In this document: positions 11,564 to 31,472 of the stretch, piece after piece | Layout: each line of letters starts with the position of its first letter | Numbering within the stretch: the first letter of the stretch is position 1 | Assembly (NCBI GenBank): GCA_029866155.1 | Contig: JARWZW010000030.1 | Coordinates: 1-64,000 of the forward strand | Reading direction: 5' to 3' | Origin: Caulobacter sp. | GTDB lineage: Bacteria; Pseudomonadota; Alphaproteobacteria; Caulobacterales; Caulobacteraceae | Length of the DNA stretch: 64,000 nt | Translations under genes and position numbers: made by a program | The notes under the pieces: generated by a model | The model's database searches: none | The model's input: the letters and a program-made list of their open reading frames with translations, nothing else | Told to the model about the DNA's origin: nothing

Positions 11564-11671
11564 AGAGCATGTTCCGATAAGTGGGAAGCGGTTATCGGAA
11601 CATGCTCTAACACTTTGAATCAGAGCCTGTTTTTCCAGTATGATCGGTTCGATCATAATGGAACAGGCTCT
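11564..11671. repeat. Bipartite palindromic repeat, copy A (MITE-like)
   Basis: The 108-bp element consists of palindrome 1 (11564-11608; 17-bp perfect arms AGAGCATGTTCCGATAA and its complement), a 13-nt linker (11609-11621) and palindrome 2 (11622-11671; outer arms AGAGCCTGTT/AACAGGCTCT, inner arms ATGATCG/CGATCAT). It has no coding capacity. Its right end supplies the last two bases of the stop codon of the MFS gene at 11670-11672. The same design recurs at 17947 and 31360. Confidence 0.9.
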
Positions 11672-13043
11672 AGGCCCCCCGCCGGTCCTCATCCAGACTT
11701 CGCAGGGGCGAGAGGGCATAGACCAGGGCGAGGGTCGCCAGCATCAGCAGGCCCGGGACCAGGACCGCCATATGGGGGCCGATCGCCTTGGCGAGAAAGC
11801 CATAGGCCACGGCGCCCAGGGGACCGCCGCCCATTAGACCCAGGGTGAAGATCGACAGGATCCGTCCCCGACTTTCGGCCGGGGCATGATGCTGGACCAG
11901 ACCCCGGCCCAGGGTCATGGCCACGCCGCCGCCCAGGCCCCAGATGAAGTTCAGTCCGCAGAAGGCCCAGAAGGGCAGGGACAGGGCGCAGGCCACCAGC
12001 ACCGCTCCGCCCGTGGCGAGGGCCGCCAGATACAGCAGGCCCTTGCGGCGGATATGGCCGATCCGCACCAGGACCAGGGCCGAGACCATGGAGCCCGTCC
12101 AGAAACAGAGGCTGAACAGGGCCAGGGCCGAGGCGACATGGGTCTTGTCCGGGTCGGCCTGGAAATAGCTTTCGACGATCAGCGGGAGCAAAACATAGAA
12201 GCTGCCCATGAAACAGATTCCCATGGCCACGGCGCAGATCATCACGGCGGCGATCACCGGGATGCCGGCGGCCGCCTGAAGACCGCCGGCGATGTCCCCC
12301 GCCATCCGGCGGAGCAGAGGGCTGTCGCCGGACTGAGGCCGGTGTTCGGGAGGCCTGGGCCGCAGGCGGACCGCCGCCCAGGTGGCGGAGACCATCAGGA
12401 CCGACAGGGCCAGCAGCAGGGGCCCCACTCCGATGAAGGGTGCGGCGATGGCGCAGACCATCCCGAGGATCTGGGCGGCGAACTGGGCCAGGGCGGCGAA
12501 GCTGACCGCCTTCTGGATGCCGAAGGCGTCGCGGGACGGGGCGACCTGGCTCAGCAGGCTGTCCCGGGCCGGAATGGCGAAGGCCCCGATGGTTCCGACG
12601 ACCAGGGCATAGGCGATGGTCAGTCCGTAGGTCAGATGGCCGGTGGTGATCATCAGTCCCAGGGCCAGGAAGGTGATGACCGTCAGCCCGCAGGCGATGA
12701 TGACGATTCGCTGGGGGTTTCCACGGTCCGCAACGAAGCCTCCGATCAGGATCAGGAGGGTGGTGGGCAACTGAAGGCACATCTGGGCCAGGCCGAACCG
12801 GACCTCGTTCTCCTGCAGCAGGATCCGGACGATGTAGGGGAACAGCACCATCTGCACCCCAAACGCCAGGTACCAGGCGCCGTGGGTGAACAGATAGGCG
12901 CCAAAGCCTGTCGAGACGCCGGGCGCCGGGACTTCCGGGGCCGGGGCAGCCGGAACCGGTGGCGCGCCTGGGCGGCCCGGCTCCGGCCCGGGGGATTGCG
13001 GCCCTATCTGCGGGTGCCCAGCAGGTTTCGGGCCACAACCCAT
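11670..13043 (-). CDS. MFS transporter, exporter-like
   Basis: A 457-residue major facilitator with about 40 proline-rich N-terminal residues and then twelve predicted membrane helices. It resembles the enterobactin/drug exporter branch (MFS_3), with a G-G-x-x-A-D-R-G-N-P loop 2-3 motif. The ATG at 13043 lies 40 bp inside the end of the upstream acyl-CoA dehydrogenase gene and has GAGG 9 bp before it; no alternative start is evident closer to the first helix. The stop codon TAG is formed with the edge of repeat copy A. Substrate unknown. Confidence 0.85.
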   Translation of the reverse strand: MGCGPKPAGHPQIGPQSPGPEPGRPGAPPVPAAPAPEVPAPGVSTGFGAYLFTHGAWYLAFGVQMVLFPYIVRILLQENEVRFGLAQMCLQLPTTLLILIGGFVADRGNPQRIVIIACGLTVITFLALGLMITTGHLTYGLTIAYALVVGTIGAFAIPARDSLLSQVAPSRDAFGIQKAVSFAALAQFAAQILGMVCAIAAPFIGVGPLLLALSVLMVSATWAAVRLRPRPPEHRPQSGDSPLLRRMAGDIAGGLQAAAGIPVIAAVMICAVAMGICFMGSFYVLLPLIVESYFQADPDKTHVASALALFSLCFWTGSMVSALVLVRIGHIRRKGLLYLAALATGGAVLVACALSLPFWAFCGLNFIWGLGGGVAMTLGRGLVQHHAPAESRGRILSIFTLGLMGGGPLGAVAYGFLAKAIGPHMAVLVPGLLMLATLALVYALSPLRSLDEDRRGA

Positions 13044-14170
13044 TTGTGGACCTCGGTCGGGCCGTCATAGATTCGCATGGTCCGCACCTTGGCCGCCATC
13101 AGATGCAGCGGCAGTTCGCGGGTCATGCCCATGGCGCCGAAGGTCTGCATGGCCCTGTCGATGACCTCCCAGGCCATCTCGGTGGCATAGGCCTTGATCA
13201 TCGAGATCTCGGTGCGCACGTCGCGGCCCTGGTCCATCTTCCAGGCGCAGTCATAGGTCATCAGCCGGGCGGCATGGATGCGGGTCGCCGCGTCCGTCAC
13301 CCAGAACTGAATGGCCTGGCGCTCCGACAGGGGCACACCGAAGGTTTTGCGCTGCGGGGCGTACTCGATGATCATGTCCAGGGCCCTCTGGGCCAGACCG
13401 ATGGACCATGCGGCCATTTCGCAGCGGCGGGTGCCCAGCCGCACCTGCATGGGGGCAAAGCCCTGGCCTTCGGTCCCCAGCAGCTTCCAGCCCGGCACCC
13501 GGCAGTCTTCCAGCGCCACCTCATAGGTGACTTCCGTTCCGATCATCGGGATGGCCCGCAGCACCTTGAAACCGGGCGTCTCGCGATCGACCAGGAAGGC
13601 CGACATGCCGCCCCGGCTGCCCTTTTCCTTGTCGGTCACCGCCATCAGGATGGTGAAGTCGGCCTCGGCCGCCCGGGTGATCCAGATCTTGCGGCCGTTG
13701 ATCACCCAGTCGTCGCCGTCGCGCTCGGCGCGGGTCAGCATGCCGGAGGGATCGGCGCCGGCGCCCGGCTCGGAAATACCGATGGCGGAAATGGTCTCGC
13801 CCCGGGCATAGGGGGCCAGATAAGCCTCCTTCTGCTGTTCATTGACCGTGGTCATCAGCATCCGCAGGTTGGGGCTGTCCGGCGGCAGGGTATAGGCGGT
13901 GATGGTCCGGCCCAGGGCCTCATTGACCGCCACCATGGCCACATGCGGCAGGTCATAGCCCCCCACATCGACCGGGGCGTCCAGGCTCCAGAGACCCAGG
14001 TCCTTGGAAACCTTGTCGATCCGGGCCTTTTCCTCATGGGTCAGGACGGCCGGTTGGCCACTGGCCTCCCGCTGCAGGATGGCCGGCTCCATGGGGATCA
14101 GTTCGTCCTCGACAAACCGCCGGACCAGGTCCGCCAGCATGCGATGGTCTTCGTCGAGCTCGAAATTCAT
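13004..14170 (-). CDS. Acyl-CoA dehydrogenase, ACAD10/11-like
   Basis: A 388-residue flavin-dependent acyl-CoA dehydrogenase. The FAD/substrate-binding stretch I-S-E-P-G-A-G-A-D-P lies near residue 133, W-I-T-R-A near 165, and the C-terminal helix has Y-D-G-P-T-E-V-H. In many family members the catalytic base is a glutamate in Y-E-G; here the position reads Asp, as I recall for the ACAD10/11 branch. The enzyme would introduce a trans-2 double bond into an acyl-CoA, passing electrons to ETF. The downstream MFS start overlaps it by 40 bp. A possible link to the ETF-beta methyltransferase at 16881 is contextual only. Confidence 0.9.
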   Translation of the reverse strand: MNFELDEDHRMLADLVRRFVEDELIPMEPAILQREASGQPAVLTHEEKARIDKVSKDLGLWSLDAPVDVGGYDLPHVAMVAVNEALGRTITAYTLPPDSPNLRMLMTTVNEQQKEAYLAPYARGETISAIGISEPGAGADPSGMLTRAERDGDDWVINGRKIWITRAAEADFTILMAVTDKEKGSRGGMSAFLVDRETPGFKVLRAIPMIGTEVTYEVALEDCRVPGWKLLGTEGQGFAPMQVRLGTRRCEMAAWSIGLAQRALDMIIEYAPQRKTFGVPLSERQAIQFWVTDAATRIHAARLMTYDCAWKMDQGRDVRTEISMIKAYATEMAWEVIDRAMQTFGAMGMTRELPLHLMAAKVRTMRIYDGPTEVHKWVVARNLLGTRR

Positions 14171-14266
14171 GGCGGTCTCCTTCGTCCTGGATGGCGCAGG
14201 GGGCGGTGATTTGAAGTCAGTCTAGCAAGGCCTCCGCTAGGGAGGGGAAGCCGTGAATCCGACCGT

Positions 14267-14698
14267 TCAGGGTTCCCGGCGGATTGTGTTGGCTTCGCCG
14301 GGCGGCGCCTGGTCGATGACCAGCACCACCACCGGCGCCGCACCCAGCGCCGTGCCGGTATGCCACTGGCCCCGGGCCTCGATGATCGTGTCGCCGGGGC
14401 CAAATTCCTTCGACCCGCCGGTGTCCAGGTTGCTGACCCTCAGCTGGCCGGACTCGACATAGGCGCAGCGCGCATGGGGATGCTTGTGGACCGGCAGGCT
14501 GGACCCCGCCGCGATCACCACCCGGCTGACTGTCACCGCCGCCGGCCCCTGGGGCAGCAGGATCGGCTGGCCCGAATTGGTCGCCTCGAACCGTCCCAGC
14601 ACCGTCGCCTCCTGGGCCATGGCGGGCGCCGCCAGGGTCGCCAGGGTCAGAAGGACAGGGGCCAGGGCCTTGCCGGCGGCGAAAAGGGTCATGCGCAT
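14267..14698 (-). CDS. Secreted cupin-domain protein
   Basis: The 143-residue precursor starts with M-R-M-T-L-F and a signal peptide ending in A-M-A-Q-E. It then forms a single small beta barrel: the cupin metal motif is recognisable in P-V-H-K-H-P-H-A-R and in the later G-D-T-I-I-E-A-R-G-Q-W-H. It is probably a periplasmic metal-binding protein. A GGGGAGGAG ribosome binding site lies 11 bp before the ATG at 14698. The frame continues upstream, but without a start that suits a signal peptide. Reaction unknown. Confidence 0.8.
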   Translation of the reverse strand: MRMTLFAAGKALAPVLLTLATLAAPAMAQEATVLGRFEATNSGQPILLPQGPAAVTVSRVVIAAGSSLPVHKHPHARCAYVESGQLRVSNLDTGGSKEFGPGDTIIEARGQWHTGTALGAAPVVVLVIDQAPPGEANTIRREP

Positions 14699-14871
14699 GG
14701 TCGGTCGAACTCCTCCCCTCTTTTGGCCCGACTGGGCCGCTGAGGGAAGCGCCCTCAATAGTTCTTCCTCTCCGGGGAAGATGAACGATCGCGAAAGCGA
14801 TGGTGGAAGGGGTCCCCACCGGCGGGTCCGCGGCGAAGGCATCGCCGCCGCCTTTCCGCTATAATGCCCCC

Positions 14872-15864
14872 ATGACTCGCGCCCCCACCCTGCCCGACGC
14901 TCCCCTGCCCGACGCCGCCGCCGGAAACTGGGTGGATCGGCATGCGCCGGCGGGGCTGCGGCCCTGGCTGAAGCTGGGGCGGTTTGATCGGCCGGCCGGG
15001 ATCTGGCTGCTGATGCTGCCGGGCTGGATGGGCATCGCCCTGGCCGGCGCCATGCAGCAGCGCTGGCCGGACCCGGTCCTGATGGTCCTGTTCCTGGCGG
15101 GGGCGGCCCTGATGCGGGCGGCGGGCTGCGCCTATAACGACATCGTCGACCGGGACATCGACGCCAGGGTCGCCCGGACCGCCCTGCGGCCCATCCCGGC
15201 GGGCCAGATCAGCCTGAAACAGGCCTGGGCCTTCGTGCTGGGCTGCTGTGGCCTGGGCTTCCTGATCCTGCTGACCCTCAATGTCTGGGCCGTCGGACTG
15301 GGGATCGCCTCTACGGCCCTTGTGGCGGCCTATCCCTTCATGAAGCGGATCACCTGGTGGCCCCAGGCCTGGCTGGGCCTGACCTTCAACTGGGGGGCGC
15401 CCATGGGGTTTGCCGCAGCGCTGGGCGGCGCCAGCCTGATCCCCCTGGGAACGCCGGCGCCATTCGTGGCGCTCAGCCCCTGGCCCGCCGTCCTGCTCTA
15501 TGGCGCCCTGATCTTCTGGACCCTTGGCTATGACACCATCTACGCCGTCCAGGACCTGGAGGACGACGCCCTGGCCGGGGTGAAATCCTCGGCCCGGCGC
15601 CTGGGCGACAACGCGCCCCGGGGGGTGCTGGTCTTCTATGGCCTGTGTTTCGTGCTGGTGCTGATGGCCGGCTCCCTGGGGGGGCTGGGGCCCCTGGCCC
15701 TGCTGCCGCTTGGGCTGTTCGGGCTACATCTGTCGCGGCAGGCGGCCAGACTGCGGCTGGATGATCCCGCCCTGGCTTTGAGACTGTTCAAGTCCAACAC
15801 CCTGGCCGGCCTGCTGCTGGTGGCGGCCCTGGTGGCCGGCCTGTGGCGACCAGCGGGGTTCTAA
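14872..15864 (+). CDS. ubiA: 4-hydroxybenzoate polyprenyltransferase
   Basis: A 330-residue integral membrane prenyltransferase of ubiquinone synthesis. The first Asp-rich motif reads N-D-I-V-D-R-D-I-D near residue 90 and the second, Y-A-V-Q-D-L-E-D-D, near 225; these bind the Mg-diphosphate of the prenyl donor. Many hydrophobic helices follow the UbiA pattern. The product should attach the polyprenyl tail to 4-hydroxybenzoate in the inner membrane. A TATAAT at 14860-14865 sits just before the ATG, which would imply a leaderless transcript if it is a -10 element, but no -35 is convincing. Confidence 0.93.
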   Translation: MTRAPTLPDAPLPDAAAGNWVDRHAPAGLRPWLKLGRFDRPAGIWLLMLPGWMGIALAGAMQQRWPDPVLMVLFLAGAALMRAAGCAYNDIVDRDIDARVARTALRPIPAGQISLKQAWAFVLGCCGLGFLILLTLNVWAVGLGIASTALVAAYPFMKRITWWPQAWLGLTFNWGAPMGFAAALGGASLIPLGTPAPFVALSPWPAVLLYGALIFWTLGYDTIYAVQDLEDDALAGVKSSARRLGDNAPRGVLVFYGLCFVLVLMAGSLGGLGPLALLPLGLFGLHLSRQAARLRLDDPALALRLFKSNTLAGLLLVAALVAGLWRPAGF

Positions 15865-15927
15865 AGGCCTCCCCCTTCAAGTCTGGCGCCCCTTTCAAGC
15901 CGGATGGGGGCATGAGATGTTCGCCCC

Positions 15928-16884
15928 ATGGCCGTCGCCGCCCGCGTCAAACCCACCGACTATTTCACGCCGCAGGAATGGGCGCCTCTGGCGGCGCGTT
16001 CTCGCTGGATGGGCCTGTGGCTGGTCGCCCATGCCTGGTTGACCATCGCCGCCGCCATGGCCCTGGTCGTCCTGCTGCCCAACTCCCTGACCTGGCTGCT
16101 GGCGGTGATGATCATCGGCGGCCGTCAGCTGGGCCTAGCCATCCTGATGCATGACGGGGCCCATGGCTGTCTGCATCCGGAGCTGAAGGTCAATGACTGG
16201 GTGGGAAACTGGCTCTGCGGCGCCCCGACCAACGCCGACCTGCCGCGCTATCGCGATTATCACATGGGCCATCACAAGTACGCCCAGCAGGCCGAGGATC
16301 CGGACCTTGGCCTGTCGGCGCCCTTTCCCATCACCCGCAAGTCACTGTACCGCAAGCTGATCCGCGACCTGACCGGCCAGACCTTCTACAAGCAGCGGAT
16401 CGCCCCTTCCATCGCCGCCTTCCGGGACGGCGCCCGAAAGGGCGTGCCTCTGGCCAAGACGGCGGCCGGAGTCCTGGCCTTCTGGCGCCCCTTCCTCATC
16501 TTCAACGGCCTGATGTGGGCCGTCCTGATCCTTGCAGGGCTCTGGTGGGTCTGGCCGGCCCTGTGGCTGGTCCCCATGGCCACCTGGTATCCGATGATCA
16601 CAAGGCTGCGGAACATCGCCGAGCATGCCTGTATCGCCAAGGACGAGCCCGACCCCCTGCGCCATGCCCGCACCACCCATGCCGGCCCCATCGCCCGCCT
16701 GTTCCTGGCCCCCTACTATGTGAACTATCACTGCGAGCATCATATGTTCATGCATGTGCCCTGCTGGAACCTGCCGAAGGTCCACAGGCTGCTGGCGGCC
16801 AAGGGTGTGACGGCGGGGATGCTGACGGCCCCCGGCTATGGCGCCGTTCTGGACCTTGCGGCGGGACGGCCGGCCGTCGCTTGA
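15928..16884 (+). CDS. Fatty acid desaturase family protein
   Basis: A 318-residue membrane di-iron desaturase/hydroxylase. The three histidine boxes are visible: H-D-G-A-H (75-79), H-M-G-H-H (112-116) and H-C-E-H-H (268-272). Two pairs of hydrophobic helices separate them. The enzyme should use O2 to desaturate or hydroxylate a lipid; whether the substrate is a phospholipid acyl chain, a carotenoid or something else cannot be told. Its stop overlaps the start of the next gene (TTGA), so the two are probably co-translated. Confidence 0.88.
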   Translation: MAVAARVKPTDYFTPQEWAPLAARSRWMGLWLVAHAWLTIAAAMALVVLLPNSLTWLLAVMIIGGRQLGLAILMHDGAHGCLHPELKVNDWVGNWLCGAPTNADLPRYRDYHMGHHKYAQQAEDPDLGLSAPFPITRKSLYRKLIRDLTGQTFYKQRIAPSIAAFRDGARKGVPLAKTAAGVLAFWRPFLIFNGLMWAVLILAGLWWVWPALWLVPMATWYPMITRLRNIAEHACIAKDEPDPLRHARTTHAGPIARLFLAPYYVNYHCEHHMFMHVPCWNLPKVHRLLAAKGVTAGMLTAPGYGAVLDLAAGRPAVA

Positions 16885-17531
16885 TCCAGGACCGGACGGC
16901 GTTCATCCTCGAAAACACGCGGCTGCAGGTTCCGCCCCATACGCCGGAACTGCGACTGCATCTGGCCGACGAGATCACCCCCATCTGGCGGCTGACCGAA
17001 GAGCGCCTGGCCGAGATCGGCCTGCCGCCACCCTTCTGGGCCTTTGCCTGGGCCGGCGGCCAGGCCGTGGCGCGGCATGTGCTGGATCACCCTCATCTGG
17101 TGGCCGGCAAGCAGGTGCTGGACTTCGCCACGGGCTCGGGACTGGTGGCCATCGCCGCCATGCTGTCGGCGGCAAAAAGCGTGCTGGCCAGCGATGTCGA
17201 TGATTTCTGCGGACCGGCCGTCGCCTTGAACGCCGCCGCCAACGGTGTGCAGGTCACCTATACCGCCAGCGACCTGCTGGATGGACCGGTTCCGGACGGG
17301 ATCGAGGTCATACTGGCAGGCGACATCTGCTACGAACAGCCCCTGGCGGGCCGGGTCCTGGCCTGGTTGACGCGGGCAAGGGCAGAGGGGCGCACCGTGC
17401 TGATCGGCGATCCCATGCGGACCTATTTTCCCCGCGAGGGCCTGATCAAGCTGGCCGAATACCAGGTCCCCACGACCCGGGAACTGGAAGATTTCGAGGT
17501 CAAGCGGACCAGCGTCTGGGCCTTTCCCTGA
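16881..17531 (+). CDS. ETF-beta lysine methyltransferase-like (METTL20 family)
   Basis: A 216-residue class I methyltransferase. It begins I-Q-D-R-T-A-F-I-L-E-N-T-R-L, then P-P-F-W-A-F-A-W-A-G-G-Q and motif I V-L-D-F-A-T-G-S-G-L-V near 65-75; the post-motif II D-I-C-Y-E-Q-P is typical of protein lysine methyltransferases. The whole pattern matches the alphaproteobacterial METTL20 group, which methylates the beta subunit of electron transfer flavoprotein. The proposed start is TTG at 16881 overlapping the desaturase stop TGA by three bases; there is no ATG upstream in frame that avoids overlapping the desaturase by hundreds of bases. Confidence 0.85.
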   Translation: MIQDRTAFILENTRLQVPPHTPELRLHLADEITPIWRLTEERLAEIGLPPPFWAFAWAGGQAVARHVLDHPHLVAGKQVLDFATGSGLVAIAAMLSAAKSVLASDVDDFCGPAVALNAAANGVQVTYTASDLLDGPVPDGIEVILAGDICYEQPLAGRVLAWLTRARAEGRTVLIGDPMRTYFPREGLIKLAEYQVPTTRELEDFEVKRTSVWAFP

Positions 17532-17541
17532 CGCGGTGACG

Positions 17542-17883
17542 TCAGGTCTCGGACCAGACCGCCATCTCATTGCCGGCCGGGTCGCGGAAATGAAACCGCC
17601 GCCCCCCCGGAAAGCTGAAGATCGGCTTGACGATCTCGCCGCCCGCCGCCGCCACCTTGCCCGCCATGGCCTCGAGGTCGTGGGCATAGAGAATGACCAG
17701 CGGCCGATCGGTCGCCTCGCCAGGACTGGAGTCAAAACCGCCGTCGATCCCCTCGTCAAATCCCGCATAGTCCGGGCCATAGTCGATGAAGGTCCAGCCG
17801 AAGGCGGCCGTGTAAAAGGCCTTGCTGTCCGGCAGGGTCCCGCCGGGCAGTTCCACATAGTCGATCTTGCCGTCTTGACGCAT
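17542..17883 (-). CDS. VOC superfamily (glyoxalase-like) protein
   Basis: This 113-residue protein has the paired beta-alpha-beta-beta-beta layout of the vicinal oxygen chelate fold. It begins with I-D-Y-V-E-L-P, has an A-F-Y-T-A-A-F-G-W segment near residue 22, and ends with F-R-D-P-A-G-N-E-M-A-V-W, the usual second metal-ligand region. Such small proteins may be isomerases, dioxygenase-like enzymes or resistance proteins; nothing here decides. It converges on the methyltransferase gene, 10 bp apart. Confidence 0.85.
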   Translation of the reverse strand: MRQDGKIDYVELPGGTLPDSKAFYTAAFGWTFIDYGPDYAGFDEGIDGGFDSSPGEATDRPLVILYAHDLEAMAGKVAAAGGEIVKPIFSFPGGRRFHFRDPAGNEMAVWSET

Positions 17884-17946
17884 GACGCCTCCTGTATGTT
17901 CCTACTTTGTTTCAGGCAAGCGGCAGGGTCAAGTTTGGTCCAACCT

Positions 17947-18053
17947 AGAGCCTGTTCGGTTGTGATCGAACCGATCAAAACGGAAAAAAGGCTCTGATTC
18001 AGAGTGTTAGAGGGTGGTCCGATAGCCGCTTCACACTTGTCGGAACATGCTCT
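17947..18053. repeat. Bipartite palindromic repeat, copy B (MITE-like)
   Basis: The 107-bp element is in the opposite arrangement to copy A. Palindrome 2 type is at 17947-17995 (outer arms AGAGCC/GGCTCT), the linker GATTCAGAGTGTT at 17996-18008, and palindrome 1 type at 18009-18053 with a partly decayed left arm. It is flanked by TA on both sides (T-A before GAGC, T-A after GCTC). The right end forms the stop codon of the SDR gene at 18052-18054. Confidence 0.9.
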
Positions 18054-18825
18054 AGCGCGTCTGGCCCCCATCCACCGGCACGACGGCGCCGTGAACAAAG
18101 CTGGCGCGATCGCTCATCAGGAAGGCCGCCATGGTTCCGATTTCCTCAGGGGTTCCAAAGCGGCGCAGGGGCACCTCGCGCTTGAGCCAGCGGTTCCAGT
18201 TGTCGGCCCTCTCACCGGTCGACCGGGCCTCCCAGTCGCCGCCGGGGAAGATGATGTTACCCGGCGCGATACAGTTGACCCGCACGCCGGAGGCCCCGGT
18301 GATCCTTGCCAGCTCCTTGGTCAGGTGATTCACCGCCGCCTTGGCCGTGCCGTAGGTCAGGGGCGTGCCCAGGGCGCCCAGGCCGGCGATGGAGCTGATG
18401 AACAGGATGGAGCCCCTGCCCCTCGGCTGCATCAAACGATAAGCGCCCCGCGCCAGCCGCCAGGCCGAACCCAGGTTCTGGGAAAATCCCGCATCCCAGG
18501 TGTCGTCATCGACCTCCGCCCCCGGAGGACAGGGATGCAGGCCGACATTGGCGACCGCGCCATGAATCGGCCCCAGCGCCGCTTCCGCCCCGGCCAGGGC
18601 GGCCTCGATCACCGCCGTCTCGCGCAGGTCGCCGGCCATGGACCACAGGCTGTCGGCGCCATAGGTCTCCGCCAGCCGGGCCCGGGTCTCTTCCAGGGCC
18701 TCAGCCCCCCGGGCAGTGATGGCGACGCGGGCGCCCTCGGCCAGGCAGGTCTCCACGATCCCCAGGCCGATGCCGCGGCTGGCGCCGGCGACAAAGATGG
18801 TCTTGCCCTTGAGTCCCAGGTCCAT
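18052..18825 (-). CDS. Short-chain dehydrogenase/reductase
   Basis: Classical SDR of 257 residues: A-G-A-S-R-G-I-G-L-G cofactor motif near residue 12, an N-V-G in place of the usual N-N-A-G near 90, catalytic serine in F-I-S-S-I-A, and Y-G-T-A-K as the Y-x-x-x-K. The start at 18825 has a GGAGGA ribosome binding site. The stop codon TAG is made with the edge of repeat copy B. Substrate unknown; the N-A-N-V-G variant and the insertion G-L-H-P-C-P-P after it distinguish it from the SDR at 8093. Confidence 0.9.
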   Translation of the reverse strand: MDLGLKGKTIFVAGASRGIGLGIVETCLAEGARVAITARGAEALEETRARLAETYGADSLWSMAGDLRETAVIEAALAGAEAALGPIHGAVANVGLHPCPPGAEVDDDTWDAGFSQNLGSAWRLARGAYRLMQPRGRGSILFISSIAGLGALGTPLTYGTAKAAVNHLTKELARITGASGVRVNCIAPGNIIFPGGDWEARSTGERADNWNRWLKREVPLRRFGTPEEIGTMAAFLMSDRASFVHGAVVPVDGGQTR

Positions 18826-18893
18826 GGCGTTCCTCCTCAGTCTGTTTTGACCAGAGTGGAGGACGGTCCCCTGCGTCATGCAAGGGCCGACCG

Positions 18894-23438: not shown

Positions 23439-23447
23439 TCCGGCCCC

Positions 23448-23845: not shown

Positions 23846-23892
23846 CGTGCGCGGATTTTGGGGAAGGCGAACGACCTGGAGTCTGGCCCGGC

Positions 23893-23945
23893 AAGCGTGA
23901 AGCGGTTCTCGGCCCATTCTCCAACTCTTTGAACCAGAGCCTGTA
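23893..23945. repeat. Decayed copy D of the bipartite palindromic repeat
   Basis: The 53-bp remnant aligns with copy A from the loop of palindrome 1 through the linker to the left arm of palindrome 2 (GAAGCGGTT, CTTTGAA, CAGAGCCTGT are shared), with substitutions that break the pairing. It ends 18 bp from the stop of rcdA. Confidence 0.75.
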
Positions 23946-23962
23946 CCCGGCCGCCGCGCAGA

Positions 23963-24481
23963 TCAGTTGGCGCCGGCGAAAGCGTCCCTCAGGCGATCGA
24001 ACTGGCTCAGAACCGCATTGGGGGCCTCGGCCTCGCCAACCTCGAGATACATCTTCCTGTCCAGGTGCCGGACCCGATCATAGAGCCGGGCGGACCGGTC
24101 CAGCAGGTCCAGTAGGCCCATGGGCAGGGGTTCTTCCGGCGCTCCTGCCAGGCAGACCGCCTCGGCGCTCAGCCGGTAGCGCTCGTCACAGGCGGCGTCG
24201 GCCAGCATGTCGCCTTCCCGCACAGCCCGTTGCACCAGCAGCCAGCTGGCCACCTGCATCAGACGGGTCGTGAGACGCATGCTCTCGGAGGCATAGGCCA
24301 GGGCTCCGTTGCGGGAGAGCAGCTTGGATTCCTGCCGCCCGCCGCCGTCCAGATAGGCCGCCGTCTCCTCGACCAGGTCCATTCCCTCCTGGAAGGTGCG
24401 CTCAAAAAGCTCTGACCGGGCGAAATCGGCAATCACGCCGGCGCGCCACGGCGCCGTCGCCAGCGCTCCAAGATCGTTCAT
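23963..24481 (-). CDS. rcdA: RcdA-like regulator of CtrA degradation (DUF1465)
   Basis: A 172-residue helical protein of the DUF1465 family, the family of Caulobacter RcdA. RcdA is an adaptor that, with CpdR and PopA, delivers CtrA and other substrates to the ClpXP protease at the old cell pole. Features include an E-L-F-E-R-T-F-x-E-G-M-D-L-V-E-E-T-A-A-Y-L segment near residue 25 and a long helix with R-L-T-T-R-L-M-Q-V-A-S-W-L-L near 75-88. The ATG at 24481 follows GGAG; a GTG two codons earlier is possible. A DUF1192 gene and a quinone oxidoreductase lie next to it, a grouping I recall from other alphaproteobacteria. Confidence 0.85.
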   Translation of the reverse strand: MNDLGALATAPWRAGVIADFARSELFERTFQEGMDLVEETAAYLDGGGRQESKLLSRNGALAYASESMRLTTRLMQVASWLLVQRAVREGDMLADAACDERYRLSAEAVCLAGAPEEPLPMGLLDLLDRSARLYDRVRHLDRKMYLEVGEAEAPNAVLSQFDRLRDAFAGAN

Positions 24482-24592: not shown

Positions 24593-24802
24593 TCAGCCAT
24601 TCTTGAAATTGAACAGGGCGTCCGCCGCCGACTTGGTCGCCTGTTTCCGGGCGATCTGGGCACGGCTGCGGGCGATTTCAGCCTCCAGGACCTCGATACG
24701 CTCCTCTAGTTCCGACACACCGTAGATTTCGAGATCCTCGCGGGTCAGGGCCTTCAGGCCATCCCCCGGCAGGGGCCTGGCGCCCGCCGGTTCATCCATC
24801 AT
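24593..24802 (-). CDS. DUF1192 family protein
   Basis: A 69-residue protein with T-R-E-D-L-E-I-Y-G-V-S-E-L-E-E-R-I near residue 20, then a heptad-like E-V-L-E-A-E-I-A-R coiled coil and an A-A-D-A-L-F-N-F-K end. This is the DUF1192 pattern, a small alphaproteobacterial family of unknown role usually found beside DUF1465/RcdA. Two consecutive ATG codons (24802, 24799) follow a GAGGAGAGAGG ribosome binding site. Confidence 0.85.
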   Translation of the reverse strand: MMDEPAGARPLPGDGLKALTREDLEIYGVSELEERIEVLEAEIARSRAQIARKQATKSAADALFNFKNG

Positions 24803-24899
24803 CGCCCTCTCTCCTCGCCGCGCCCTATCGCGAAAGTCCGGGTTCTGGCCTATCTGAGCCCTCAAGCCCGACCTTCGCAAGCCAAAGGAACGCCAAGCC

Positions 24900-25877
24900 A
24901 TGTCCCAGACCAACATGACGGCCATCACCATCGAGGGCGGCAAGGGTCCGGCAGAAGCCCTGCGGCCTGAAACGGCGCCAATTCCCCAGCCGGGCGAGGG
25001 CGATGTGCTGATCCGGGTCAGGGCGGCAGGGGTCAACCGGCCGGACCTGCTGCAGCGGATGGGCTATTATCCCCCGCCCCCCGGCGCCCCGGCCACGCTT
25101 GGCCTCGAAGCGGCGGGTGAAGTCGTCACCGGCGCCGGGCGCTGGAAGGCCGGCGACCGGGTCTGCGCCCTGCTGGGCGGCGGCGGCTATGCGGAATTTG
25201 TCGCCGTGGACGCCCGGCACGCCTTGCCTATCCCGGCAGGTCTGGACTTTACCCAGGCCGCCAGCCTGCCCGAGACGGTCTTCACCGTCTATGTCAACGT
25301 CTTCGAGCATGGCGCCCTGAAGGCCGGCGAAACCCTGCTGATCCATGGAGCCACCTCGGGCATCGGCGTCACCGCCATCCAGATGGCCAAGGCGGCAGGC
25401 GCCCGGGTCATCGCCACAGGACGGGGCGCCGAAAAGGCCGCCCAGGCCCTGGCCCTGGGCGCCGACATCGCCGTGGACGCCTCGAGTGAGGATTTCGAGG
25501 CCGTGGTCAAGGCGGACGGCGGCGCCGATGTGGTGCTGGACATGGTCGGCGCCAGCTATTTCGCCAAGAACCTGGAGGCCCTGAAGACCGGCGGCCGGAT
25601 CGTCTATATCGCATCCCTTGGCGGGGGCATGCTGGAGGTCCCGATCATGAAGATCATGCAGAAGCGGGCGGTCATCACCGGATCGACCCTTCGGCCCCGC
25701 AGCGTCGACGAAAAGGCCCGGATCGCCGCCGAGGTGGAACGGGTTGTCTGGCCCTGGATCGCCGCCGGCAAGGTCAGGACCGTGATCGACGCCACCTTCC
25801 CCCTGGCCCAGGCCGCCCGGGCCCACGCCCACCTGGAAGCCGGCGCTCATGTCGGCAAGGTGGTCCTGACAGCTTAG
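24900..25877 (+). CDS. NAD(P)H-quinone oxidoreductase (MDR family)
   Basis: A 325-residue zinc-independent medium-chain dehydrogenase/reductase. The GroES-like N-terminal part has R-A-A-G-V-N-R-P-D-L-L-Q-R near residue 41; the nucleotide-binding fold has H-G-A-T-S-G-I-G-V-T-A near 150. It matches the PIG3/quinone oxidoreductase branch, which reduces quinones or enones with NADPH. It is transcribed divergently from DUF1192 and rcdA, with a 97-bp spacer. Confidence 0.92.
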   Translation: MSQTNMTAITIEGGKGPAEALRPETAPIPQPGEGDVLIRVRAAGVNRPDLLQRMGYYPPPPGAPATLGLEAAGEVVTGAGRWKAGDRVCALLGGGGYAEFVAVDARHALPIPAGLDFTQAASLPETVFTVYVNVFEHGALKAGETLLIHGATSGIGVTAIQMAKAAGARVIATGRGAEKAAQALALGADIAVDASSEDFEAVVKADGGADVVLDMVGASYFAKNLEALKTGGRIVYIASLGGGMLEVPIMKIMQKRAVITGSTLRPRSVDEKARIAAEVERVVWPWIAAGKVRTVIDATFPLAQAARAHAHLEAGAHVGKVVLTA

Positions 25878-25917
25878 GATTTGAGGCTGGGCCTGATGAT
25901 CAGGGTGGCGGGGCTTC

Positions 25918-26718
25918 TCAGCCCGCCGCCTTGAGCTTCTCCAGGATCAGCGGATGCAGGTCGAGGTTGGAGGCCAGCAGGTTGCCGCTGTCCAGCATGG
26001 TCTCGCCGCCGTCGAGGTCGGTGACCTTGCCGCCGGATTCTGTGATCAGCAGCAGGCCCGCCGCGATGTCCCAGTTCTTCAGGCCCCGCTCCCAATAGCC
26101 GTCATACCGCCCGGCCGCGACCCAGGCCAGGTCCAGGGCCGCAGAACCATAGCGGCGCACCCCGGCCACCCTCTGGGTGATCTGATGCAGCTCTTTCAGG
26201 AACTGGGCATGGCCGGGCTTGCCCAGGAAGGGAATGCCGGTGGCCAGAAGGGCGTCGTCCAGGCGGTTGCGGGCCGCCACCCGCAGGCGGCGCTCGGCGC
26301 CCAGCCAGGCGCCCTTGCCCTTTTCGGCCCAGAACAGGTCGGCCGTGATCGGGTTATAGGTCACCGAGGCGACGATCTGGCCTTCGCGCTGAAGGGCGAT
26401 GTTGATCGCGAAATGCGGAATGGCGTGGATGAAGTTGGTGGTGCCATCCAGGGGGTCGACGATCCAGGTATGGGTCTTGTCGGTGCCCTCGATCAGGCCC
26501 CTCTCCTCGCCGATGAAGCTGTAGCCAGGCCGCGCCTTGCTGAGCAGTTCGAAGAGGGTCTGTTCGGCCTTCAGGTCGGCGGCGGTGACAAAGTCGCTGG
26601 CCGACCCCTTGCGGGAGACTTGAAGTTCCCCGACCTCGCCGAAGTCACGGGCCATCCCCTTCCCGGTCTTGCGGGCGGCATCCATCATGACGTTCATCAG
26701 GGGCGAGGTGGCGGGCAT
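25918..26718 (-). CDS. Inositol monophosphatase family protein
   Basis: A 266-residue Mg-dependent phosphatase. The metal-binding motifs are visible: G-E-E near residue 70, W-I-V-D-P-L-D-G-T-T-N-F near 84-95 and W-D-I-A-A-G near 215. The family includes inositol-1-phosphatase, CysQ and SuhB, the last acting as an rRNA transcription factor in E. coli. This protein is closest in pattern to SuhB/IMPase, but the substrate is not decided. The ATG at 26718 is preferred; the frame opens five codons earlier. Confidence 0.92.
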   Translation of the reverse strand: MPATSPLMNVMMDAARKTGKGMARDFGEVGELQVSRKGSASDFVTAADLKAEQTLFELLSKARPGYSFIGEERGLIEGTDKTHTWIVDPLDGTTNFIHAIPHFAINIALQREGQIVASVTYNPITADLFWAEKGKGAWLGAERRLRVAARNRLDDALLATGIPFLGKPGHAQFLKELHQITQRVAGVRRYGSAALDLAWVAAGRYDGYWERGLKNWDIAAGLLLITESGGKVTDLDGGETMLDSGNLLASNLDLHPLILEKLKAAG

Positions 26719-26797
26719 GGCGGGGGGTCTCAAAAAAAGGTCGCGGAACCTAGCGACGAGGCCGGTCTATAGCAAGGTTCTGTGGGGTTTGCCCTGA

Positions 26798-27445
26798 TCA
26801 GCTGCGCGAGGCGGCGCCCCGGGCCATGGCGGCGTTCAGTGCGACAACGGCCGCAGCCGGGCCGTCCGGATGGCTCCAGACCCCTGCGCTGACCGCCAGG
26901 AAATCGGCCCCGGCTGCGGCCAGGCCCTCAGCATTGTCGGCCGTCACCCCGCCTATGGCGACACAGGGGATCTGCATGGTCTCCTGCCAGATGGTCAGGA
27001 TGTCCGGCTCGGGACGGTAGAGGGTTTCCTTGGTGGCGGTCGGAAAGAAGGCGCCAAAGGCGACATAGTCGGCCCCCGCCTCCGCCGCCTCCATGGCCAG
27101 GTGTCGGCTGTCATGACAGGTGACGCCGATCATGGCGTCCCGGCCCATGATCCGCCGCGCCTCGGCGCAGCTGGCGTCAGACTGACCCACATGCACGCCG
27201 TCGCAGCCCAGCCGGGCCGCCAGGTCGGGCTGGTCATTGAGGATCACGGCGACATCGTGCGCCCGGGCAATGGGCGCCAGCGCCTCGACAGCGGCGGCGA
27301 TCTCGGCCTCCGGCGCGTCCTTCAGACGGACCTGCAGCGCGGCGACATCACCGGCCTCCAGGGCCTGCGCCAGTCGCCCGGCAAAGGCCGAAAGATCGCC
27401 CAGCACCGGCGGCGTGATCAGATAGAGGCGGCAATCAGTTGTCAT
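26798..27445 (-). CDS. thiE: Thiamine-phosphate synthase
   Basis: A 215-residue TIM-barrel enzyme that joins hydroxymethylpyrimidine diphosphate and thiazole phosphate to form thiamine phosphate. Motifs are Q-V-R-L-K-D near residue 38, I-L-N-D near 70, G-V-H-V-G-Q-S-D near 85, [11 protein letters not shown] near 130 and A-I-G-G-V-T near 160. It follows the inositol phosphatase region on the same strand, 80 bp away. No TPP riboswitch was recognised in the 331 bp upstream. Confidence 0.92.
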
Positions 27446-27776
27446 GGTCAGGGTTTAGCGCAGGAGGAGGCGGCGAGGAACAGCAGGCGTGTCTGCAGGA
27501 CGGTTCGGGCGAGGTGGCGGGCGGCGAAAGCCGGCCGTCAGAGGGGGTCTACACCAAGTATTGGCAACGGCTTTCAAAGCCGATGTTACGGGTAGGGGCA
27601 AGGATCCCCTCCATCATCGCTATCGCGACGGCCCCTTCCACCGATCGGGCCCTGCGGGCCTGGAGAATGAGCCTGGAACCGGCGATCAATCATCCCGCAA
27701 AGACCCCCTTTGACTACCGCAAGGTGACCCGGTTCTAATCCCTTCCAACAAGACATGAGATCCTTGGGAGGCTCCC
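27446..27776. other. Intergenic region thiE / acyl-CoA dehydrogenase pair
   Basis: This divergent region shows no credible gene: the plus-strand open frame across it has no known motif and no ribosome binding site. A 13-bp palindrome GGCTTTCAAAGCC lies near 27570. The last bases contain GGGAGG, the ribosome binding site of the TTG-started gene at 27777. The promoters of both flanking genes must lie here, but I could not place them. Confidence 0.4.
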
Positions 27777-28916
27777 TTGAACTTCGATTTTTCCGACGAG
27801 CAGAAGCAGCTGCGCGATGAAGCCAGGCGCTTCCTGACCGACCGCTGCAGCCCCGCCGCCGTCCGGGCGATCCTCGAAGGGCCGGAACCGTTCGACCGCG
27901 GCCTGTGGAAGGGTCTGGCCGAGATGGGCTTCCTCGGCGCCGCCATCCCCGAGGAATACGGCGGCGTGGGCCTGGGCCATCTGGAGCTCTGCGTCATCGC
28001 CGAGGAACTGGGCCGCGTCGTCGCCCCCGTGCCCATGGCTTCCTCCATCTATCTGGCAGCCGAGTTCCTGATGGCGGCCGGCACGGAAGAGCAGAAGTCC
28101 CGCTGGCTGCCGAAGCTGGCCTCCGGCGAGACCATCGGCTGTTTTGCCTGGTCCGAGGGCGTCGGCCGGGTGACCCCCAAATCGATCCGCACGGCCGTCA
28201 ACGGCGGAACAATCAGCGGAACCAAGGCGCCCGTCGCCGATGGCGATGTCGCCGGCCTGGCCATTGTCGCCGCCCGCAGCGGGACGGGAACCGGCGAGAA
28301 CGCCATCAGCCTGTATCTGGTAGACCTGATCGGGGCTGGCGTCTCGGTGGAGGCCATCGACACCATTGACCCGACCCGCAGCCAGTCGCGGATCGTCTTT
28401 GACGGCGCCCCGGCCGAACTGCTGGGCCTCGCCGGCGAAGGCTGGGCTATCGCCTCGCAGGTCATGGACCGGGCCGCCGTCCTGGTCGCCTTCGAACAGG
28501 TGGGCGGTTCCGACCGCGCCCTGGAAATGGGCCGCGACTACGCCCTGGACCGCATGGCCTTTGGCCGGCAGATCGGCAGTTTCCAGGCGGTCAAGCACAT
28601 GCTGGCCGACATGTATGTCGCCGCAACCCTGGCCCGTTCCAACGCCTATTACGGGGCCTGGGCCCTGTCGACCGGCTCGTCGGAGCTGCCGGTTGCGGCG
28701 GCCACGGCCCGGGTCTCGGCCACGGACGCCTTCCAGCACTGCGCCAAGAACAATATCCAGGTCCATGGCGGCATGGGCTTTACCTGGGCCTTTGACTGCC
28801 ACCTCTATTACCGCAGGGCCAATGCCCTGGCCCTGGGCCTGGGTTCCAAATCCACCTGGGAAGACCTGTTGATCGACCGACTGCGCCAGCGCAACGACGC
28901 GCCCGCAGCCGCCTGA
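27777..28916 (+). CDS. Acyl-CoA dehydrogenase (probable non-catalytic-type subunit)
   Basis: A 379-residue acyl-CoA dehydrogenase beginning at a TTG codon 5 bp after GGGAGG; the sequence M-N-F-D-F-S-D-E-Q-K-Q-L-R-D-E is typical for the family. The middle domain has C-F-A-W-S-E-G near residue 122 and the C-terminal domain Q-V-H-G-G-M-G-F-T-W near 320. After that it reads H-L-Y-Y-R-R-A where many members have a glutamate-bearing loop, so it may lack the catalytic base. It is followed 52 bp later by a second dehydrogenase gene, as in heteromeric acyl-CoA dehydrogenases. Confidence 0.9.
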   Translation: MNFDFSDEQKQLRDEARRFLTDRCSPAAVRAILEGPEPFDRGLWKGLAEMGFLGAAIPEEYGGVGLGHLELCVIAEELGRVVAPVPMASSIYLAAEFLMAAGTEEQKSRWLPKLASGETIGCFAWSEGVGRVTPKSIRTAVNGGTISGTKAPVADGDVAGLAIVAARSGTGTGENAISLYLVDLIGAGVSVEAIDTIDPTRSQSRIVFDGAPAELLGLAGEGWAIASQVMDRAAVLVAFEQVGGSDRALEMGRDYALDRMAFGRQIGSFQAVKHMLADMYVAATLARSNAYYGAWALSTGSSELPVAAATARVSATDAFQHCAKNNIQVHGGMGFTWAFDCHLYYRRANALALGLGSKSTWEDLLIDRLRQRNDAPAAA

Positions 28917-28968
28917 TCCGAAAGCCCAACCACCCTCACCGTTTCCCTTCCAGCGAAGGACCAAAGAC

Positions 28969-30225
28969 ATGAATTTCGACGACACGCCCGAAGAAGCCGC
29001 CTTCCGCGCCACCGCCCGCGCCTGGCTGGACGCCCATGCGCCCAAGGAACTTGAAGCCGAGCTGAAGATGAGCGGCTTTGGCGGCATGACCCTGAAATCG
29101 GTCGACCCCATGGCCGCCTCCAAGGCCTGGCAGGCGAAGAAAAAGGCGGCCGGCTGGGCCTGCCTGCACTGGCCCAAGGACTATGGCGGCCGGGGCGCCA
29201 CCCCCATCGAGCGGGTGATCTGGGGCCAGGAGGAAGGCGTGTTCGGCGTTCTGTCGGGCACCTTCACCATCGGCCACGGCATGTGCGGCCCGACCTTGAT
29301 GGCCTGGGCCACGGAAGAACAGAAGCGCGAGCTTCTGCCGCCCATGGCGTCCGGCGAGCATATCTGGTGCCAGCTGTTCAGCGAACCGGCCGGCGGCTCC
29401 GACCTGGCCGGCCTGCGCACCCGGGCCGAGAAGGCCACGGACGGCTCCGGCGACTGGATCATCAATGGCCAGAAGATCTGGACCAGCGGCGCCCAGCACA
29501 GCGACTATGGCATCCTGATCACCCGCACCGACAGCGATGTGCCCAAGCACAAGGGCCTGACCATGTTCTTCCTGAGCATGAAGTCGCCCGGCGTCGAGAT
29601 CCGCCCGATCAAGCAGGCCAATGGCCAGTCGGGCTTCAACGAGGTCTATTTCACAGACGTCCGCATCCCCGACGCCCAGCGCCTGGGCGCCGTGGGCAAT
29701 GGTTGGCAGGTGTCCCTGACCACCCTGATGAACGAGCGGCTGTCCATCGGGTCTGGCATGCCGACCGGTTTCCCCGAGCTGTTCGACTATTGCATGAACC
29801 TGCAGACCGAGGACGGTCCGGCCATTGACGACCGGTCGGTGCGCTCGCGCCTGGCCACCTATGCGGTGCGGGCCAGCGGCCTGAAATACACCGGCATGCG
29901 GGCCATCAGCGCCCTGTCGCGAGGCGAGACCCCGGGACCGGAAAACAGCATCGGCAAGCTGGTCGCCGGGGCCAGCATGCAGGAACTGGCCATGTTCGCC
30001 CTGGACCTCCAGGGACAGGCCGGTGTGGTCAGCGACCCCGCCCAGGCCGAGGCCGGCGCCCGGTTCCAGGCCATGCTGATGCGCTCGCCCGCCACCCGGG
30101 TGGAAGGCGGTACCGACGAGATCCTGCGCAACATCATCGCCGAACGGGTGCTCGGCCTGCCCGGCGACATCCGGGTCGACAAGGATGTCGCCTTCAAGGA
30201 CATCCCGACCCGCGGCCGGGGGTAG
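28969..30225 (+). CDS. Acyl-CoA dehydrogenase (catalytic-type subunit)
   Basis: A 418-residue acyl-CoA dehydrogenase. It carries F-S-E-P-A-G-G-S-D-L-A-G-L near residue 138 (flavin/substrate contact), G-Q-K-I-W-T-S-G near 170, and the C-terminal R-V-E-G-G-T-D-E-I-L-R-N, whose glutamate is a candidate catalytic base. With the gene just upstream it probably forms a two-subunit enzyme. The natural acyl-CoA substrate is unknown; no other beta-oxidation genes are adjacent. Confidence 0.92.
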   Translation: MNFDDTPEEAAFRATARAWLDAHAPKELEAELKMSGFGGMTLKSVDPMAASKAWQAKKKAAGWACLHWPKDYGGRGATPIERVIWGQEEGVFGVLSGTFTIGHGMCGPTLMAWATEEQKRELLPPMASGEHIWCQLFSEPAGGSDLAGLRTRAEKATDGSGDWIINGQKIWTSGAQHSDYGILITRTDSDVPKHKGLTMFFLSMKSPGVEIRPIKQANGQSGFNEVYFTDVRIPDAQRLGAVGNGWQVSLTTLMNERLSIGSGMPTGFPELFDYCMNLQTEDGPAIDDRSVRSRLATYAVRASGLKYTGMRAISALSRGETPGPENSIGKLVAGASMQELAMFALDLQGQAGVVSDPAQAEAGARFQAMLMRSPATRVEGGTDEILRNIIAERVLGLPGDIRVDKDVAFKDIPTRGRG

Positions 30226-30278
30226 GAACACGGGGGGCTGGCGGGTCCCGGGCGAACAGCGGCTCTGCCCGCCCCCGT

Positions 30279-30354
30279 CAGCCTTCGGCTGCGTGAGTTT
30301 CTCTCCAGGGGGAGAAGGGTTTGGCGAGGCTTTCTCTCTCCCCGTGGGGGGAGA
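30279..30354. repeat. Cluster of three short hairpins
   Basis: Three successive hairpins lie between the dehydrogenase and bfd: CAGCC-TTC-GGCTG (30279-30291), TCTCC-AGGG-GGAGA (30302-30315) and TCTCCCC-GTGG-GGGGAGA (30337-30354). The composition resembles GC-rich intergenic repeats common in alphaproteobacterial genomes, but this is the only copy in the window. Confidence 0.5.
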
Positions 30355-30408
30355 CGGTGTAACGCTTGGGGCGTCGGACGAGGGCGGCCCCGGCTCTTGA
30401 CGATTAGA

Positions 30409-30435
30409 TGCGAATGCGTTGCAACGTCGTTCGCA
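30409..30435. promoter_or_regulatory. Palindromic operator candidate upstream of bfd-bfr (Fur-like)
   Basis: TGCGAA (30409-30414) and TTCGCA (30430-30435) are inverted around the perfect 10-bp palindrome CGTTGCAACG (30417-30426). The TGCnAA half-sites and the iron-storage genes downstream suggest an iron regulator such as Fur; the match is by eye. Confidence 0.4.
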
Positions 30436-30482
30436 ATTTGCTACAGCCTGACTCAATCGAAGCCGCCAGAGAGTCCGCTGTC

Positions 30483-30668
30483 TTGTACGTCTGCAACTGC
30501 AATGGCATCCGCGAACGCGAGGTGCGCCAGGCCATCGACGAGGGCGCCTCACGGCCGGCCGACATCTTTCGGCGCCAGCAGTGCCAGCCGCAATGCGCCA
30601 AGTGCGTCTGTGACATGCGGCGGATGATCGATGAGCAGCGGGAAACCCTGCGCTACGCCGCGGAATAG
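30483..30668 (+). CDS. bfd: Bacterioferritin-associated ferredoxin
   Basis: A 61-residue [2Fe-2S] protein. The four cluster cysteines are in V-C-N-C-N-G and P-Q-C-A-K-C. In other bacteria Bfd docks on bacterioferritin and passes electrons to its haem to release stored iron. I place the start at TTG 30483, because Bfd proteins begin M-Y-V-C-N-C-N; an ATG at 30408 would add 25 residues and would cover the palindromic operator candidate. The bacterioferritin gene follows 116 bp downstream. Confidence 0.88.
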   Translation: MYVCNCNGIREREVRQAIDEGASRPADIFRRQQCQPQCAKCVCDMRRMIDEQRETLRYAAE

Positions 30669-30784
30669 GCGCAGGCCACCTATCTGGCCGCCCCTGACAT
30701 CACGGTCTGTTCACCCCGTCACGCCTTGCCAGCCGTTGCCTGTGCGGGCGTACTGTCCGCCTCGAAAAACAGGGAATCACCGCC

Positions 30785-31276
30785 ATGAAGGGCGATCCGG
30801 CCATTATCCGCATCCTGAACGCGGTCCTGACCAACGAACTGACGGCGGTGAACCAGTATTTCCTGCACGCCCGGATGTACCAGCACTGGGGCCTGAGCCG
30901 GATCGGCCAGATCACCTATGACGAGTCCATCGGCGAGATGAAACACGCCGATAAGCTGATCAAGCGCATCCTGTTCCTGGATGGCCTGCCCAACCTGCAG
31001 GACCTGCACAAGCTGAAGGTCGGCGAGACCGTGCCTGAAGGGCTGGCCGCCGATCTGGCGGTCGAGGTTGGCGGCCGGGCGACCCTGATCCCCGGCATCC
31101 AGGCCTGCGATGCGGCCCAGGACTATGTCAGCCGCGAACTGCTGGTCGAGATCCTGTCAGACACAGAGGAACATATCGATTTCCTGGAAACCCAGCTGGA
31201 CCTGATCCGCACCCTGGGCGAGGCCAACTACCTGCAGAGCGCCATGGGCCCCCTGGAAGGCGGCGGGGGTCACTAG
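30785..31276 (+). CDS. bfr: Bacterioferritin
   Basis: A 163-residue four-helix ferritin that stores iron in a 24-subunit shell. Ferroxidase ligands Glu18, Glu51, His54, Glu94 and His130 are at the expected positions, as is the haem ligand Met52. At the position of E. coli Glu127 the sequence reads Thr, within D-T-E-E-H, so the ligand may come from a neighbouring glutamate; I recall the same D-T-E-E-H motif in some other bacterioferritins. It is probably co-regulated with bfd by iron. An inverted repeat follows at 31293-31338. Confidence 0.95.
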   Translation: MKGDPAIIRILNAVLTNELTAVNQYFLHARMYQHWGLSRIGQITYDESIGEMKHADKLIKRILFLDGLPNLQDLHKLKVGETVPEGLAADLAVEVGGRATLIPGIQACDAAQDYVSRELLVEILSDTEEHIDFLETQLDLIRTLGEANYLQSAMGPLEGGGGH

Positions 31277-31292
31277 ACGAAGGCCGGTCAGC

Positions 31293-31338
31293 TTCGCCTC
31301 AAGTGGTCCAGCGGGCCAGAGGCTTCCCTTGAGGCGAA
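31293..31338. terminator. Large two-tier hairpin downstream of bfr
   Basis: TTCGCCTCAAG (31293-31303) and CTTGAGGCGAA (31328-31338) form a perfect 11-bp stem; inside it TGGTCC/GGGCCA (31304-31318) forms a second one with an AGC loop. No T-run follows. It may end the bfr transcript. Confidence 0.45.
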
Positions 31339-31359
31339 CGGGTCATCACTCCGCCCCCT

Positions 31360-31472
31360 AGAGCCTGTTTCGATCCGATAGCCGCTTAGCACTTATCGGA
31401 ACATGCTCTGATTCAAAGGGTTAGAGCATGTTTCGATCCGATAACCGCTTCACACTTGTCGGAAAATGCTCT
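31360..31472. repeat. Bipartite palindromic repeat, copy C (MITE-like)
   Basis: The 113-bp element has two palindromes of the same type (31360-31409 and 31423-31472), each with AGAGC.../...GCTCT ends and a CGATCCGATA core, separated by the linker GATTCAAAGGGTT (31410-31422). TA flanks both ends. The right end supplies the stop codon of the receiver-domain gene at 31471-31473. Confidence 0.9.

Follow-up and report, generated by a model that had tools for sequence, protein, structure and literature searches.

How a short palindromic repeat that carries no gene came to stand at several intergenic places in a Caulobacter genome is the question raised by a stretch of 64,000 nucleotides from Caulobacter sp. 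(assembly GCA_029866155.1, contig JARWZW010000030.1, positions 1 to 64,000), referred to below as the window. The repeat comprises two palindromic arms joined by a short linker and is very probably a non-autonomous mini-transposon (miniature inverted-repeat transposable element, MITE) of an alphaproteobacterial insertion sequence (IS) of the IS630 family. It is placed with the IS630 type because its sites can be found empty in a relative, CTAG is preferred as target, and both its ends and its target are common to IS630 elements. It has the properties of a MITE, being short, present in many copies and without a transposase gene, with a TA duplication evident at empty sites and ends in common with IS630.

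Copies and anatomy of the repeat

Three full bipartite copies are present in the window, at the places given by a first-pass annotation of the sequence: copy A (11565-11670, minus strand, 106 bp), copy B (17948-18052, plus strand, 105 bp) and copy C (31361-31471, plus strand, 111 bp). The element is bounded here as GAGC...GCTC, with the outer A/T excluded; the annotation had taken these bases in and had arrived at lengths of 107-113 bp. It had read the flanks correctly: TA borders both sides of copy B (17946-17947 and 18053-18054), both ends of copy C and one side of copy A (11671-11672), with CA (plus-strand reading) at 11563-11564 on the low-coordinate side of the latter. The arms of copy A lie at 11623-11670 (arm1) and 11565-11607 (arm2) on the minus strand. 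The linkers of the three copies, at 11609-11621 (minus strand), 17996-18008 (plus strand) and 31410-31422 (plus strand), each contain GATTC, an instance of GANTC, the CcrM site. The model of the family was built from 43 sequences that include copies A and B, whose scores of 123 and 96 bits are hence obtained by construction; copy C lies outside the model and scores 80 bits (E 4.4e-17). A decayed copy had been proposed at 23893-23945; it proved real and longer (copy D, 23879-24008, minus strand; 39.8 bits, E 1.1e-7, outside the model), with linker and arm2 recognisable and arm1 mostly gone. A further fragment proposed at 62304-62324 is not supported, as it matches the 10-mer with one mismatch and the model gives nothing there at E<=1. 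The terminal motif occurs 19 times in the window against an expected 3.95.

The expectation of further copies in the genome was borne out, as the linker pattern with up to three mismatches gives 50 matches there (reversed-pattern control, 0) and the genome contains about 50 or more copies. A total of 51 copies were collected, of which 43 were aligned; the remaining eight rows, including C and D, did not enter the alignment. The aligned layout consists of arm1 (48 nt), a linker of 15 nt and arm2 (48 nt). In each consensus arm an outer stem of 9 bp, GAGC(C/A)TGTT, leads past a bulge on the linker side into an upper stem. The mixing of palindrome types that had been suggested for the family is found, among the copies examined, in copy C only, which is unusual in having two arm2-like arms; the 43 aligned copies keep the single order arm1-linker-arm2. 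Within the arms, 90.4% of cells are paired, double changes that preserve pairing occur in 36 cells versus 15.9 in shuffles, and the covariation score is 0.129 versus 0.099 (none of 500 shuffles as high), values that kinship of the sequences can inflate and that refer to a structure drawn from the consensus itself. At 105-111 bp, the repeat is too short for a transposase gene.

The family was detected by the model in at least 58 of 75 genomes of Caulobacter. Outside the genus, matches were obtained in at least 12 of 288 genomes drawn from the class, spread over eight families; both counts are lower bounds, with strict filters and up to 50 candidates scored per genome. Most of the matches inspected outside the genus keep the layout but differ in the sequence of the arms, and a few weak ones show a single arm. 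The loci concerned in other families of the class (L357-L385) show a similar bipartite layout with other arm sequences, and several of them share a linker core resembling TCAAA..GTTAG. Weak matches (about 70-71% over most of the query) were also seen on Bartonella plasmids.

Insertion sites and the candidate IS630 parent

A sister species (G017) was used to look for empty sites. About a quarter of the genome was compared, with 92% identity over 652 bp beside copy B; the comparison covers copy B, and copies A and C lie outside it. Flank matches in the compared stretches were available for 17 of the 51 copies, of which four weak ones were dropped and 13 aligned. At seven of these 13, G017 has an empty site with a single TA. 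Four of the seven (copy B, L003, L017 and L165) are bordered by TA on both sides in the present genome, and three (L016, L019 and L166) by TA on one side and a one-base change of it on the other; the flanks of L016, L017 and L165 have drifted. Of the other aligned copies, L056 is present in both genomes, L007 is present in both with differing flanks, and the corresponding G017 sites of L018, L030, L054 and L162 are unreadable.

Among copies with locatable ends, TA stands on the left in 31 of 47 and on the right in 28 of 50. The left TA is preceded by C in 30 of 31 cases (window background 29%) and the right TA is followed by G in 21 of 28 (35%). Of the 17 copies flanked on either side by TA, 11 lie in CTAG, versus 20 of the 715 TAs of the window. 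As C precedes nearly every left TA, duplication of CTA is also compatible with these data. We favour TA as the duplicated target, given the symmetry of the ends and the usual behaviour of the family: IS630-family elements duplicate TA on insertion (PMC2170065, whose reference list also includes a paper titled on CTAG). The first-pass annotation had anticipated both the empty sites and a TA target duplication, and the single TA at the seven readable empty sites together with the CTAG preference agrees with it.

An IS630-family transposase (PF13358) is encoded in 16 of the 75 genomes of the genus, including this genome and G017. Element ends were searched for as 16-bp inverted repeats next to TA, without using the sequence of the repeat. 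Candidates were obtained at 10 of the 27 IS630 loci of the genus, eight of them GAGC-ended (one with GACC at the right end) and 1034-1050 bp in length. One genome (G027) contains six near-identical copies (L209, L214, L219, L222, L223 and L224) with sharp common ends and CTAG in six of six, and this element is likely active. Among named relatives, of which the best 80 of at least 229 confirmed were used, 43 loci have TA-bounded ends, and GAGC starts 39 of the 43 left and 36 of the 43 right ends. IS630-type elements with matching ends, the other element of the early proposal, were thus found by search. Alphaproteobacterial IS630 elements such as ISRm2011-2 resemble the repeat in the TA at their ends, their GAGC termini and, where seen, the CTAG target; they differ in being about 1.03-1.06 kb long with a transposase gene, whereas the repeat has none.

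The agreement of the ends extends beyond the terminal GAGC, which was omitted when positions 5-25 of the repeat ends were compared with IS end profiles, with shuffles as control. All 19 representatives of the genus fit at p<=0.001 at both ends, although these are related and do not amount to 19 independent tests. Of the 43 copies from this genome, 41 left and 42 right ends fit at p<0.05, and their consensus left end fits the IS profile at p 0.0015; the fit is strongest for the genus form and weaker for this species. The right end of the genus form and the IS end of L199/L207 are equal in 19 of 21 bases (counted by eye). The left arm is closer to the end at which the transposase gene starts in 16 of 19 representatives, which supports its being a palindromic duplication of one IS end. 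An assignment of arm2 to the right IS end was rejected, the right-end profile being the better one in only 5 of 19. Only the left arm can be assigned to an IS end, as the right arm mostly fits the left-end profile better; the right arm may likewise be a palindromic duplication of one IS end.

Several observations count against descent from an IS630 parent. In 14 of 19 representatives the better profile for the right arm is that of the left end, and in 5 that of the right end. Four repeat-rich genomes (G001, G041, G054 and G069, with 47-48 scored matches each) have no IS630 match, so that the parent must have been lost there or be another element; a link between copy number and presence of IS630 was accordingly rejected. 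The IS630 copies of the present genome are damaged or cut by a contig end, and in G102, with one IS type whose ends are readable, agreement with the repeat ends is limited to GAGC. In the other lineages a PF13358 match is found in 8 of 12 genomes, and ends could be read for G351, where they agree in GATGA, and for G102; no support is drawn from these. Looked for under strict settings beside the 80 named IS loci, bipartite repeats numbered none and single arms 31 versus 37 in a Markov control, a result that tells neither way. No report of an IS630 parent for these repeats was found in the open-licence literature, searched mostly at abstract level.

If the repeat is a MITE of this kind, its outer ends GAGC...GCTC would be those recognised by the transposase. 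On the inner side of each end lies its inverted copy, which gives two hairpin arms joined by the 15-nt linker. Acting in trans, a transposase of IS630 type would excise the repeat and insert it at TA, preferably within CTAG, with duplication of the TA. Both the mobilisation in trans and the route by which the arms became palindromic are what we infer from comparing sequences.

GANTC sites at the left ends of IS630 elements

The alphaproteobacterial IS630 elements carry GANTC sites concentrated at one end. In 48 elements with ends that were counted as alphaproteobacterial, the 85 bp at the transposase-start end (the first 85 bp) contain 128 sites, the last 85 bp contain 13 and all middles together 15; the first-order Markov expectation for the first 85 bp of the 48 is 32.3 in total. 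Six non-alphaproteobacterial relatives have two, one and ten sites in the same three parts. Removal of near-duplicates left 43 elements with 117, 13 and 14 sites, and in 39 of them GANTC begins at exactly position 21. In a second set, ends were obtained at 17 of 30 alphaproteobacterial loci (39, 6 and 3 sites; position 21 in 14 of 17) and at 5 of 10 remote, non-alphaproteobacterial ones (2, 2 and 18 sites; position 21 in none of the five). A third, named set gave site 1 at exactly position 21 in all five alphaproteobacterial elements with ends (nine fetched), ISRm2011-2 included. GANTC at position 21 occurs in none of the nine non-alphaproteobacterial relatives, among them the three of the named set. 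As background, three or more GANTC were found in 5 of 6465 flanking windows of 85 bp.

Of the 53 distinct alphaproteobacterial elements of the first two sets, 49 have site 1, 38 have site 2 and 48 have site 3. Near-invariance within the first 30 columns is limited to GAGC and to G21, A22, T24 and C25, and N23 is free (A in 40, G in 8, T in 3 and C in 2). We lean towards the explanation that alphaproteobacterial IS630 elements of this subgroup are under the control of CcrM. The stretch from the left end to the transposase gene holds as many as three GANTC sites whose positions hardly vary; through them, transposase expression, or use of the end, could depend on the methylation state after passage of the replication fork, much as Dam methylation acts on Tn10 and Tn5 (PMC5390034). 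Were this so, CcrM, a second methylase unrelated to Dam, would have for transposons the role that Dam has for Tn10 and Tn5, and coupling of transposition to the cell cycle would become directly testable in a standard laboratory strain of Caulobacter. It tells against such control that site 1 is missing in 4 of the 53 elements (L228, L240, L266 and L267).

The sites might instead be transposase-binding or promoter motifs that spell the CcrM site by chance, a genuine though lesser possibility. They cluster within 85 bp of the left end, an inverted repeat can be read from sites 1 and 3, and the N of sites 2 and 3 is not free, being nearly always T, which keeps this option alive for these two sites. 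However, at site 1 GA and TC are fixed but the N is free, the site is missing from the opposite end although the same transposase binds there, the non-alphaproteobacterial relatives lack it, and the element bodies are nearly free of GANTC. No report of CcrM sites in IS630 elements was met in the open-licence literature, again mostly at the level of abstracts. One copy of the repeat in another genome (L308 in G057) resembles the IS elements in that GAATC stands at position 21 of its left end.

Neighbouring genes, CIR and other palindromic repeats

Open reading frames called mechanically run into or across the copies (for example, 16836-18098 across copy B), yet the Pfam-matched neighbours end exactly at copies A, B and C, so that the intergenic location noted at first pass holds. 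The overlap of one Pfam-matched frame, 10735-11613 (a response regulator), with copy A is confined to the part by which the frame was mechanically extended upstream; the domains of this frame start at residue 57. On the minus strand, three genes have a TAG stop codon composed of the target TA and the first G of the adjacent copy: a major facilitator superfamily (MFS) transporter gene (11670-13043, stop at 11670-11672, copy A), a short-chain dehydrogenase gene (18052-18879, stop at 18052-18054, copy B) and a response-regulator gene (31471-32265, stop at 31471-31473, copy C). The same arrangement was found at 41 of 97 copy sides, where an open frame of no fewer than 100 codons ends exactly in a TAG formed by the TA beside the copy and the first G of the element, with 15 and 18 open frames in the two other phases as control; one further side ends in TGA. 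Some of the 41 frames are not genes, because antisense frames are often open at the G+C content of the window (66.8%). The target TA is often that of a stop codon. Since TA and the first G of the element rebuild TAG, the neighbouring gene keeps its end.

Such placement also bears on an explanation in which the copies persist because they serve as transcription terminators or mRNA 3'-end hairpins, with mobility belonging to their past and selection on RNA structure maintaining the pairing. The covariation in the arms would suit this role, as would the many copies lying exactly at stop codons, including those at the three Pfam-matched genes of the window. The stop-codon position is equally explained by target choice, though, and compensatory changes in palindromes can come from template switching, which weighs against the role; it is considered unlikely.

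The nearest described relatives are the Caulobacter CcrM-associated intergenic repeats (CIR; Chen and Shapiro 2003, via PMC2229807 and PMC10969869). PMC2229807 describes the CIR design for Caulobacter and Brucella, notes a partial resemblance to MITEs and states that the mechanism of mobility needs more information. CIR and the window repeats share a length of about 110 bp, two palindromic arms with a linker, TA at the termini, intergenic location and the genus. They differ in that the GANTC of CIR, as there described, lies at the terminal loop of one arm, whereas the window copies have theirs in the linker, where it is not conserved in the family; GANTC is absent from the arm loops in the consensus of the 43 copies. 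The window repeats are accordingly set apart, on the published description of CIR, as CIR-like sisters, because the arm-loop GANTC, a defining feature of CIR, is missing from them. The family had been called undescribed at first pass, which is correct only in part, since the layout is already that of CIR (PMC2229807).

A rival view takes the repeat for a regulatory element of the host that is under selection for its CcrM site, as has been proposed for CIR, and that spread by recombination in place of a transposase. The linker GANTC is present in 39 of 50 copies of this genome, as a host element would have it, and CIR are named for their CcrM sites (PMC2229807). Nevertheless, it is lost in the remaining 11 of 50 copies and is absent from 16 of 17 representatives of other species, and the single TA at empty sites and the CTAG preference point to transposition; a host element is therefore very improbable. 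The broader reading, that a CcrM control region ties the movement of IS630 elements to the cell cycle and that bipartite repeats across the class, CIR included, are their MITE offspring, is to our mind evenly poised. The poor retention of the linker site, which 8 of 17 copies in G017 and 1 of 17 representatives from other species have (one more has GANTC in an arm loop), also counts against the main explanation, a MITE of IS630 elements controlled by CcrM. If the broader reading is right, the known link between these repeats and CcrM sites would be left over from the control of transposition and would not reflect a regulatory role in the host; the IS630-like ends and target in the same genus offer a testable answer on CIR mobility.

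An approximate CIR-like arm pattern gave matches in 27 of the 75 genomes of the genus and none in the present genome. The matches represent a second repeat type, with an arm starting GAGCATTTTCCGACGAAGTGG (for example, at L346 and L350); its loop contains GGATTCC, with GANTC, in some species and lacks it in others. This type we take to be close to CIR.

RUP of pneumococcus is a further comparison. According to PMC2229807, RUP is 107 bp long, intergenic and present in many copies with TA termini, and its mobilisation in trans by IS630-Spn1 has been proposed. Size, location, copy number, termini and the proposed use of an IS630 transposase in trans are thus alike; RUP differs in having one pair of terminal inverted repeats (table in PMC2229807), where the window repeat has a hairpin arm of its own at each end. 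An element of the REP/BIME/REPIN type moved by a Y1 (RAYT) transposase, which would likewise have two hairpins and many intergenic copies, is barely conceivable, as this draft genome gives no PF01797 match and the TA at empty sites and the CTAG target match IS630 ends instead. RIME elements of rhizobia, of about 108 bp with two palindromes, would be similar to the window repeat in layout; no paper on them was among those listed in the open-licence literature.

At the gathering threshold, Rfam gives two matches in the window, neither of which overlaps the repeats. A suhB (mmgR) small RNA is matched at 50254-50329 (plus strand, 55.6 bits) and a tRNA gene at 51817-51888 (plus strand).

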